Assembly (NCBI GenBank): GCA_014381555.1
Contig: JACNLO010000057.1
Span: forward strand, 1 to 64,000
Source of the DNA: Planctomycetota bacterium
GTDB taxonomy: Bacteria > Planctomycetota > Phycisphaerae > Phycisphaerales > SM1A02
Reading direction: 5' to 3'
Length of the DNA: 64,000 bases
This document shows, piece after piece, positions 2,216 to 54,082 of the stretch. The notes below the pieces were generated by a model that ran no database searches, was not told where the DNA came from, and saw only the letters and a list, made by a program, of their open reading frames with translations. How positions within the stretch are numbered: position 1 is the stretch's first letter; every line of letters begins with the position of its first letter. The position numbers and the translations under genes were made by a program.

Positions 2216-2761
2216 ATGACCGAAACCCCATCTCTTATGGTTCCTCTTGGAAGTAAGCTTCCTTCTTTTGAACTTCCAGATTCAAATGGAGCACTATACT
2301 CACCCACTAATAATACTTTTGGAACGCTCGTCATTTTCTTGTGCAATCACTGCCCTTACGTCATCCATATTGCGTCCATTTTGGGAAGGATTGAAGAGCA
2401 TTGCAATCGATCGAATATCCAAATGGTTGGGATTAATTCGAACGATATTGAAGCGTATCCTGATGATAGCCCGAAAAATATGGCACTAACCGCACAAAAA
2501 TTCCAGTGGCGGTTCCCATACCTATTTGACGAGTCTCAAGAGGTTGCCAGGGCATTTCAAGCAACATGTACCCCAGAAGTGTTTTTATATGACAAGTCGA
2601 ATTGCTTGTATTACAGGGGGCAATTTGATGATTCTAGACCATCAAATGGCGTTGCAAGCGGTCAAGACCTCCTACACGCCATACAGGAGATGCTAGAGGG
2701 ATTGCCACCACAAAAAGACCAAAAACCATCCACAGGGTGTAATATCAAATGGAGAGCGTAA
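2216..2761 (+). CDS. thioredoxin-family redoxin (AhpC/TSA-like)
   Basis: 181 residues with no signal peptide, so probably cytoplasmic. The opening PLGSKLPSFELPDSNG is the standard start of the AhpC-TSA/redoxin fold. The strand before the active site ends in FLCNHCPYV, a CxxC motif with C43 and C46. TPEVFLYD contains the cis-proline typical of thioredoxin folds. This CNHCPYV subgroup is widespread and annotated as thioredoxin-family protein; its substrates are not established. The gene is divergent from sucC with a GGAG ribosome site before ATG 2216. Confidence 0.85.
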   Translation: MTETPSLMVPLGSKLPSFELPDSNGALYSPTNNTFGTLVIFLCNHCPYVIHIASILGRIEEHCNRSNIQMVGINSNDIEAYPDDSPKNMALTAQKFQWRFPYLFDESQEVARAFQATCTPEVFLYDKSNCLYYRGQFDDSRPSNGVASGQDLLHAIQEMLEGLPPQKDQKPSTGCNIKWRA

Positions 2762-2838
2762 AACGTCAAAAAAGTTTATAACTTTTTCTACATCGATGCT
2801 TGAAGTGATGCATACTACGTATATAACTTCGGACTCCC

Positions 2839-2930
2839 AGACTGGGACGATTCCTACACCATGCCCCATAGGGCACCTCGGATTCTTTGAAATCCGTTTC
2901 GGGTACATACAAGAGGAAACGTCCCAGTCT
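2839..2930. other. strong inverted repeat; possible structured RNA
   Basis: Gene-free stretch between the redoxin and lipoprotein genes. An 11-base perfect inverted repeat (2839-2849 with 2920-2930) is continued inward by a 5-base pair set (ttcct 2851-2855 with aggaa 2914-2918). It encloses two small hairpins: tgccc/gggca around 2864-2877 and cggatt/aatccg around 2879-2896. Together these give a three-way-junction shape about 92 bases long. Not recognised as tRNA, SRP RNA, tmRNA or a riboswitch class. Strand is undetermined because the pairing works both ways. Confidence 0.5.
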
Positions 2931-3057
2931 CCTTTTATGAATTTTTTCGTGCACAAACGAAACTTTCTTCGTATCATGATTAATAGTTGAAACAAAAGAA
3001 GTTTTAAATGCGTTGTACTAAAGCGACGTAATATTTACAGATAATAGGAGGTTCAGT

Positions 3058-3420
3058 ATGAACAGAACAATTTTAGGTTTAACACTCTCCGCCCTTGCAA
3101 CAACATCTTTCCTAGGATGTACCAAGACAGAAGAAGGAGCAGGAATTGGTGCTGCTGTTGGTGCTCTTGCTGGTCAAGCCATTGGTGGTGATACAGGTGG
3201 AACACTCATTGGTGCTGGCATTGGCGCAATCGTTGGTGGGGCTGTAGGAAATAGCCAAGAAGAAGAAGCCCAGCAACAACAACGTGCTGCTGAAGGGTCG
3301 ACCGTCAGGCGAACTACAGTTCATGAAACTTTGAATCCAGATGGATCGATTACTCGAACAGGTACTACAACCACAACTTCAAGCCAATCCTCTGATGGGT
3401 ATACCGGTCTTGAAGACTAA
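3058..3420 (+). CDS. glycine-zipper lipoprotein (copy 1)
   Basis: 120 residues. A type II signal peptide ends in the lipobox FLGC, with Cys21 as the lipidated residue, so the mature protein is probably membrane anchored in the periplasm. It is followed by a glycine-zipper segment with repeated GAGIGAAVGALAGQAIGG and GAGIGAIVGGAVG, the pattern of glycine-zipper 2TM (SlyB/Rickettsia 17 kDa-like) proteins. The C-terminus is polar, with EEEAQQQQ and a Ser/Thr-rich tail. A near-perfect AGGAGG lies upstream of ATG 3058. A shorter paralogue follows 20 bases later. Likely envelope-structural; the exact role is unknown. Confidence 0.85.
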   Translation: MNRTILGLTLSALATTSFLGCTKTEEGAGIGAAVGALAGQAIGGDTGGTLIGAGIGAIVGGAVGNSQEEEAQQQQRAAEGSTVRRTTVHETLNPDGSITRTGTTTTTSSQSSDGYTGLED

Positions 3421-3439: not shown

Positions 3440-3646
3440 ATGAAAAAAATACTTACAACCCTATCAGTAGCAGCAATCTTGAGTGTATCACTTATAGGTT
3501 GCACTAAAACACAAGAAGGTGCTGGAATTGGTGCGGCAGTTGGCGCACTTGCTGGCCAAGCCATTGGTGGAGATACAGGTGCTACACTTATTGGTGCTGG
3601 CGCTGGCGCAATTATCGGTGGTGCGGTTGGTAGCAATCAAGAGTAA
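3440..3646 (+). CDS. glycine-zipper lipoprotein (copy 2)
   Basis: 68 residues starting MKKILTTLS at ATG 3440, with AAAGGA upstream at 3428-3433. The signal peptide ends in the lipobox LIGC. The zipper GAGIGAAVGALAGQAIGGDTG is identical to the preceding gene across that stretch, and GAGAGAIIGGAVG follows. The protein stops right after the zipper, lacking the polar tail of copy 1. Adjacent position, same orientation and high DNA similarity indicate tandem duplication. A strong terminator follows at 3671, so the two genes likely form one transcript. Confidence 0.82.
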   Translation: MKKILTTLSVAAILSVSLIGCTKTQEGAGIGAAVGALAGQAIGGDTGATLIGAGAGAIIGGAVGSNQE

Positions 3647-3670
3647 CTAGTATTACCAAACACAAGAATA

Positions 3671-3696
3671 CCCCGCTTGCAAAAGCGGGGTTTTTT
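3671..3696 (+). terminator. intrinsic terminator after lipoprotein genes
   Basis: Stem ccccgctt/aagcgggg with a short loop, followed directly by TTTTTT. It sits 24 bases after the second lipoprotein stop. Confidence 0.92.
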
Positions 3697-3761: not shown

Positions 3762-3834
3762 AGCCACCCACGGGAGTCGAACCCGTGACCTAAGCTTTAC
3801 GAAAGCTTCGCTCTACCAACTGAGCTAGGGCGGC
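3762..3834 (-). tRNA. tRNA-Thr (CGU anticodon)
   Basis: Folds as a full cloverleaf on the minus strand: 7-bp acceptor (GCCGCCC with GGGTGGC, one G-U), D arm GCTC/GAGC, anticodon stem AAGCT/AGCTT with loop TTCGTAA giving anticodon CGT, and T arm ACGGG/CCCGT with TTCGACT. The discriminator is T, and CCA is not encoded. It lies 8 bases past the stop of the HEAT-repeat gene. Confidence 0.95.
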
Positions 3835-52359: not shown

Positions 52360-54082
52360 ATCAATCACAAATCGTATAACAATCACTGCAATTTTTATTG
52401 CTGTACTCGTAGGAATTATGTTTGGCGCCGCACTCTACAAAGTAGTAGTACTTAAAGTTTCGCCACCTAGCGCGCTCGTGCATGCAACCGACCCTGTCAT
52501 CAGCACTTCTCATACTATTGCAACACGAGGTAACATTATTGACTCTCGTGGAAGAATTCTTGCAGCAAGCAGAATTGGCCACACATTATTCGCCGATCCA
52601 TCTCTTGTAGAAGATCCAGAAAAACTTGCACTAGAGCTAGGCCAAAAACTTGGCATCTCTCCGGCATTTATTGAAGAAAAAATTCGCTCAAGACCAAGCA
52701 GCAAATATGTAGTCCTCGAACCGCTTCTCGATCACAACCAAGTTGAAACCGCTCGCACGTTGCAACTTCGTCCTATTGGAATTCAAGAACGGCTTGTAAG
52801 AGAATACCCACATGGAGATGTTGGTGGTTCATTAATCGGCTTCGTCGGAGCCGAACACTCTGGGCTTGCTGGGTTCGAGAATAGATATGACAATCAACTC
52901 TCAGGCGAGTCAGGCAAGTTTGTTCGCCAGCGTGATATAAAACGAAAAACTATATGGGTCTCCCCAGACCAATATCACCCTACAAATAACGGGGAAGATA
53001 TCCAACTTTCTATCGATGTTGTCATTCAAAACATTGCTTCATCACGGCTGCTTGAAGCAATACATCATTGCAACGCTGGAGGTGGCAGGATTGTCGTTGC
53101 CAACCCATCGACTGGAGAAATTCTCGCAATGGCTGACATATTGAACCCACGAGATGGATGGACACAACAGCCAAGCGACCCAAATAGAGAGATAAACCCT
53201 AGACTTGGTAGAAATCGCTGTGTTACTGATCCATATGAACCGGGTTCTACATTTAAACCCTTTGTTTGGTCAGCCGCAACCGAGCTTGGGCTAGCAGAGG
53301 TTGATGAAGTTTTACAAACACCTTCTGACAAACCTTATCGAACAACATTTGGCAGAAGTATTCGCGATGCACATTACTATGGACCATCAACATGGAAAAA
53401 AGTTCTCGTCAAATCAATGAACAGTGGAATGGCCATCGTCGCTGAACGTTTTTCACACGAACAATTACAGAACACTATTCGTAGTTTCGGTTTTGGAGAA
53501 CGAACCTTAGCTGGGCTTGGAGGTGAAACTTCTGGCATCATCACATCTCCATCAAACTGGAACGATTACACACAAACTTCTGTTTCAATGGGACATGAAA
53601 TTGCCGTGACTCCACTTCAAATGGTTCAGGGATTTTGCGCATTTGCTCGAGATGGCACTGTTCCGCAATTACAACTTACTCCAGCTCAGGATGGTGATAT
53701 CTCGATTGTGCGTAATGCCATTTCCCCTAAAACTGCTGCGCTTACAAGACAAATTTTGGGCGAAGTTATGACCGAAGGTACTGGGAAACTAGCTCGAAGC
53801 GATATGTATTTGCTTTTTGGAAAATCAGGTACAGCCCAATTACCTCGAAGTGATGGGAAAGGATATTTTGAAGAGCGTTACATTTCTAGTTTTATAGCAG
53901 GAGCTCCAATCGATTCACCTGCAATTGTTGTACTTTGTGTGATCGACGACCCTGACAAATCTATTGCTCATTATGGGGGAACCGTTGCAGGACCAGTTGT
54001 GCGTGATGTCATCGAATCGTCACTGCAATATCTTGGTGTAACACCATCAACAGAATTTCTTGTTCAAGCGAGTGTTGAATAA
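52346..54082 (+). CDS. ftsI: class B penicillin-binding protein FtsI-like transpeptidase
   Basis: 578 residues. An N-terminal membrane helix is followed by the pedestal with TRGNIIDSRGRILA. The transpeptidase has SxxK in EPGSTFKPF (S301, K304), SxN in KSMNSGM, and KSGTA as the KTG-type box. It cross-links septal peptidoglycan. Position after rsmH and the ftsL-like gene supports FtsI over PBP2. murE, usually next in dcw, is absent; a UbiA gene converges instead. Confidence 0.93.
   Translation: MRTTKSITNRITITAIFIAVLVGIMFGAALYKVVVLKVSPPSALVHATDPVISTSHTIATRGNIIDSRGRILAASRIGHTLFADPSLVEDPEKLALELGQKLGISPAFIEEKIRSRPSSKYVVLEPLLDHNQVETARTLQLRPIGIQERLVREYPHGDVGGSLIGFVGAEHSGLAGFENRYDNQLSGESGKFVRQRDIKRKTIWVSPDQYHPTNNGEDIQLSIDVVIQNIASSRLLEAIHHCNAGGGRIVVANPSTGEILAMADILNPRDGWTQQPSDPNREINPRLGRNRCVTDPYEPGSTFKPFVWSAATELGLAEVDEVLQTPSDKPYRTTFGRSIRDAHYYGPSTWKKVLVKSMNSGMAIVAERFSHEQLQNTIRSFGFGERTLAGLGGETSGIITSPSNWNDYTQTSVSMGHEIAVTPLQMVQGFCAFARDGTVPQLQLTPAQDGDISIVRNAISPKTAALTRQILGEVMTEGTGKLARSDMYLLFGKSGTAQLPRSDGKGYFEERYISSFIAGAPIDSPAIVVLCVIDDPDKSIAHYGGTVAGPVVRDVIESSLQYLGVTPSTEFLVQASVE

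Follow-up and report, generated by a model that had tools for sequence, protein, structure and literature searches.

What is the branched inverted repeat that occupies the intergenic stretch 2839-2930, with a redoxin gene on one side and a glycine-zipper lipoprotein gene on the other? A sequence-only reading had proposed a small RNA, a cis-element for the lipoprotein genes or a mobile palindromic repeat. We followed up the element within the window, the 64,000-nucleotide stretch of DNA that was analysed, in its own genome (1,994,086 bases in 91 contigs) and in related genomes. The small RNA emerged as the best supported of the three identities, by the fold, a -10-like box, a T-rich end and occurrence in 10 of 13 genomes of the genus, whereas the mobile repeat was given up. 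With a probability of roughly 0.55, we take the element to be a gene whose product, a structured small RNA of about 115 nt, is transcribed independently.

Fold of the intergenic element

As the sequence-only reading had described, 2839-2849 and 2920-2930 form a perfect inverted repeat of 11 bp, which crosses one mismatch and continues with 5 further pairs, giving 17-nt arms of 94% complementarity. Two inner hairpins lie inside this outer stem in the fold predicted for the + strand (Table 1). The 92-nt fold has an energy of −41.1 kcal/mol on this strand and a z-score of −5.81, with none of 200 shuffles being as stable, which bears out the earlier view that there is more structure than chance would give. 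The outer stem taken alone was less exceptional. Seven perfect inverted repeats of at least 11 bp with spacers of 3-100 were counted in the window, compared to a mean of 2.0 and a maximum of 7 in 50 dinucleotide shuffles; when at least 7 G/C were demanded in the arm, the count was 3, compared to a mean of 0.16 and a maximum of 1 in 50 such shuffles. By itself the outer stem is uncommon without being the only one of its size in the window, and it is the whole fold, together with its conservation, that carries the case.

The fold energy of the whole element ranged from about −36 to −44 kcal/mol among its copies in the genus, and z-scores against shuffles lay between −3.8 and −6.4 in all 11 of them. 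Arm-to-arm length varied from 83 to 91 nt. The length differences were not divisible by 3, so that no common reading frame runs across the element, which speaks against a coding gene.

Table 1. Coordinates of the element, its flanking signals and the neighbouring genes in the window
Feature	Position	Strand	Basis
Redoxin gene	2216-2761		Pfam AhpC-TSA and Redoxin
Possible -35 hexamer TCTACA, 18-nt spacer	2787-2792	+	By eye; 4 of 6 consensus letters
Conserved -10-like box CATACT	2811-2816	+	11 of 11 copies
5' tail of the putative RNA, conserved (G)GACTCCC	2823-2838	+	Alignment; start placed from the -10 box
Outer stem P1, 5' arm	2839-2855	+	Inverted repeat; mean pairwise identity 0.92-1.0 for 2832-2851
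Inner hairpin P2	2862-2873	+	100% of pair cells kept; two-sided change in 2 of 5 pairs
Inner hairpin P3, sequence-variable	2876-2895	+	Predicted fold
Outer stem P1, 3' arm	2914-2930	+	Inverted repeat; mean pairwise identity 0.96 (2912-2921) and 0.89 (2922-2931)
T-rich stretch after the stem, putative terminator tail	2931-2937	+	T count across copies
ECF-type promoter TGAAAC-N17-CGTT, distinct from the element and assigned to the lipoprotein gene	2988-3014	+	Motif match
Glycine-zipper lipoprotein gene, downstream of the element	3058-3420	+	Pfam Gly-zipper_Omp, 1.7e-09
Second glycine-zipper lipoprotein gene	3440-3646		Follows the 3058-3420 gene

Distribution and genomic context

The search for other copies in the element's own genome, suggested by the sequence-only reading, found none beyond the one. 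A DNA search of 101 relatives yielded 10 further copies, full or partial, in 9 other genomes of the same genus, and also three weak 21-nt matches elsewhere. Weak partial DNA matches of about 21 nt (L011-L013) and antisense matches to the same element (L026-L028) were excluded from the alignments, and a covariance model was built on 11 copies. This model placed the element in 10 of the 13 genomes of the genus, which comprises uncultured marine Phycisphaerales. Under strict filters, with which weak matches are lost, there was no match among 168 other genomes of the family at E up to 0.1, nor, at E up to 0.01, among 387 genomes drawn evenly from the rest of the order. Searching without these filters at 18 lipoprotein loci of other genera and at 24 redoxin or incomplete loci gave only three weak simple hairpins (E 0.03-0.15), which lack the inner hairpins. 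None of the viral contigs searched contained the element. Within the genus, a spacer of 148 nt separates the redoxin and lipoprotein genes of G003, with neither the element nor the CATACT box between them; G007 and G010 are cut off by a contig end at this point and therefore do not count as true absences.

The order of the locus was sucC, (redoxin), element, lipoprotein in all copies, and all 11 lie upstream of the lipoprotein gene and on its strand. In three genomes (G001, G006 and G009) the redoxin gene was not found, and the element was kept with sucC as its upstream neighbour. Its persistence at loci without redoxin makes a terminator of that gene very unlikely. The MAG G011 holds the whole locus in two diverged versions (L022 and L025) on contigs with a coverage of 11.7 and 3.9, probably reflecting a mixed bin. 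In the window, a strong bidirectional terminator-like hairpin is seen past the second lipoprotein gene at 3670-3691, beyond which, at 3762-3834, the - strand carries a tRNA.

A 20-nt pattern searched with up to 3 mismatches in the 13 genomes hit one place outside the locus (G003 C37:11349); the reversed-pattern control gave 0 matches, and about 1.5 chance matches were estimated over the 13 genomes. This candidate second copy falls within a reading frame that is metK-like, judging by its translation, and gave no hit with the RNA model; it was therefore taken as a chance match.

Conservation and covariation

At the same loci, redoxin orthologues encode proteins that are 51-61% identical. In the alignment of the region, 2832-2851 and 2912-2931 reached mean pairwise identities of 0.89-1.0, most flanking non-coding blocks 0.33-0.6, and nothing else in the region is conserved as well as the P1 arms. 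In the interior (2882-2901) identity was 0.52-0.55, with the hairpins still forming, and in the group of G005, G002 and G011b hairpin P3 has another sequence and is retained as a hairpin.

Conservation of the pairing in relatives had been set beforehand as one of the tests, and the pairing was kept: standard pairs filled 98.5% of the pair cells in the plain alignment, compared to 34-54% when slid by 1-3 columns. The secondary structure, one criterion by which small-RNA genes are recognised, was thus conserved across the copies. Covariation, also put forward earlier as a check, was modest overall. In the plain alignment 2 pairs showed two-sided changes, a number reached by 99 of 500 shuffles, with a covariation score reached by 0 of 500; in the model-fitted alignment there were 3 such pairs (reached by 19 of 500). 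The few compensatory changes are confined to P2 and P3. In P1 no two-sided change was seen and 11 of the 16 pairs are constant, so that its pairing is supported by stability and wobble changes, not by compensatory change. This invariance indicates that in P1 the letters themselves matter.

Transcription signals and the proposed RNA

The CATACT box ends 25-28 nt before an invariant CTGGG in all 11 copies. Candidate -35 hexamers picked by eye (in relatives, e.g. TTGCCA, TTGAGA at 17 nt) range from weak to fair, and a promoter scan called no site upstream of the element. At the other end, the sequence-only reading had noted that no T-run follows directly. This is roughly true of the window, where the stem is directly followed by CCTTTTATGAATTTTTT, but at least 5 T are found in the 9 nt past the stem in 10 of the 11 copies, the window's included, commonly as TCTTTTT. 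Three copies, those of the window, G012 and G011b, have an imperfect T-run, and a terminator scan with a loop limit of 8 nt called none on the + strand at the element.

The lipoprotein gene has a promoter of its own. The motif GAAA[CG]-N17-CGTT is present at the locus in all 11 copies and also in G003, where the element is absent, and it resembles ECF promoters, for which an excerpt of PMC8103513 gives ATTGAAACCTTT as the SigW -35 and CGTT as the EcfG -10 element. TGAAAC-N17-CGTT has 2 matches in the window, compared to 0.26 expected on both strands, the other one lying at 53561-53587 (-). A conserved TATCATGAT-like block at 2972-2980 (+), between the element and the ECF-type promoter, is possibly another -10 box.

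From the distance of the CATACT box and the T-rich end, we infer an RNA of about 115 nt that would extend from 2823 to about 2937. A housekeeping promoter containing the CATACT box would start this RNA, which would fold into a long closing stem that encloses two or three small hairpins; closing stem and T-rich stretch together would end transcription, the stem thereby serving twice, as body of the RNA and as its terminator. Since conservation of the stem arms and of the 5' tail GGACUCCC goes beyond pairing and extends to their letters, the RNA may well act through them, probably in trans. Either its CU-rich tail could base-pair with target sites of the Shine-Dalgarno type, or a protein could bind the RNA. 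The anti-Shine-Dalgarno-like CUCC within the conserved tail may be read as a hint at the mode of action, no more, and against the start of the neighbouring lipoprotein mRNA the tail had no better pairing energies than shuffled tails.

The promoter that the lipoprotein gene possesses, and keeps in G003 without the element, strengthens the small-RNA reading. The weak -35, the imperfect T-run, the modest covariation, the failed tail pairing and the absence of any Hfq or ProQ found (see below) weaken it.

Alternative readings

A constant position ahead of a single gene is equally compatible with a cis element, and the main rival to a small RNA is a leader acting in cis on the lipoprotein operon. 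The RNA started at the CATACT promoter would then form the operon's 5' leader and the long stem would act as attenuator or terminator; a small hairpin TCCCA-GAC-TGGGA at its 5' side, which shares the 5' arm of P1, or a bound ligand or protein would decide on read-through. The element precedes the lipoprotein ATG on the same strand by 129-148 nt in all 11 copies (measured from where the match to the 3' arm ends), it stays with this gene where redoxin was lost, and every one of the 11 copies is able to form the alternative 5' hairpin. That hairpin is weak, however, at −2.5 to −2.9 kcal/mol compared to the energy of the whole element. The conserved promoter between element and lipoprotein gene is a separate one, and G003 has both the gene and the ECF-type promoter without the element. 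A leader is possible, although we consider it rather unlikely.

A second alternative is an RNA whose GGA motifs bind and titrate CsrA, in the manner of small relatives of CsrB or McaS. CsrB, RsmZ and McaS are CsrA-titrating small RNAs with GGA motifs; the element shares these motifs and its genome has CsrA, but unpaired GGA are few in the element and not all conserved. Two CsrA-family genes, one of them more diverged, are present in each of the 13 genomes of this genus, in which no Hfq was found. The copies contain 3-6 GGA each, most in the G005, G002 and G011b group, where a hairpin loop carries one GGA and another is unpaired. In most copies, however, just 1-2 GGA are even partly unpaired, the junction GGA is missing from the window's copy, and the excess of GGA over shuffled sequences was significant (P under 0.05) in only 6 of 11 copies, 3 of which are one close group. 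Titration of CsrA thus appears improbable.

Still less credit can be given to an element acting at the DNA level as a protein-binding palindrome, or to a mere terminator of the redoxin gene. The element is an imperfect palindrome and follows redoxin in most copies; yet it also occurs in the three genomes without redoxin, its inner hairpins change in sequence while keeping their pairing, and arms separated by 58 nt would be an unusual arrangement for a dimer site. Invariant arms and a -10 box of its own, moreover, are not required of a plain terminator. Finally, the REP- or MITE-like mobile palindromic repeat was rejected, since the element is present in one copy in its own genome, always at the same locus, with no relaxed second copy.

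Comparison with known RNAs and protein partners

At 2839-2930 no family of Rfam 15 matched at E up to 10. The 6S RNA model (RF00013) matched neither the locus nor any of the 13 genomes of the genus, in which Hfq, ProQ and Ro60 (TROVE) were likewise not found (0 of 13 each). As the controls were positive in few of 14 known genomes (6 for 6S RNA, 5 for Hfq, 1 for ProQ and 1 for Ro60), these absences are moderate evidence.

With trans-acting small RNAs that end in an intrinsic terminator, the element shares the promoter-like box, the compact fold, the T-rich end and the intergenic place; it differs from them in its very long closing stem, in that no target was found and in the genus having no Hfq or ProQ found. 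The long closing stem and a size of similar order are reminiscent of 6S RNA, but a terminal long stem with a central bubble is missing, as is the RF00013 match. Bacterial Y RNA (YrlA) is about 100 nt long, its two ends form a long stem with branches inside, and Ro60 is its partner. The element is similar in size, in the stem formed by its ends and in its branching, but it has no Rfam match and its genus no Ro60 found.

Searches of the literature on small RNAs of Planctomycetes, Phycisphaerales and Rhodopirellula, on glycine zippers and on ECF found no such RNA, nor was a small RNA from Phycisphaerales found in the literature searched. For the whole PVC group, the table of one review contains 8 small RNAs (PMC9029176). 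The Rhodopirellula-1 motif is a candidate structured RNA of Proteobacteria and Planctomycetes, for which the pertinent section of PMC2864571 gives no Rfam number. The element is a credible candidate for a new small RNA, real, conserved, structured and, among the genomes searched, restricted to its genus.

A further and speculative extension, to which we attach little probability, is that a genus-specific regulatory RNA works without Hfq or ProQ, its nearly invariant 16-bp closing stem being read as sequence by a protein, either CsrA or an unknown double-strand binder, and that it ties expression of the ECF-controlled envelope lipoproteins to growth state. As a conserved, syntenic, single-copy candidate beside an ECF-controlled lipoprotein operon, the element would offer a concrete entry to RNA regulation in a lineage in which neither Hfq nor ProQ was found.
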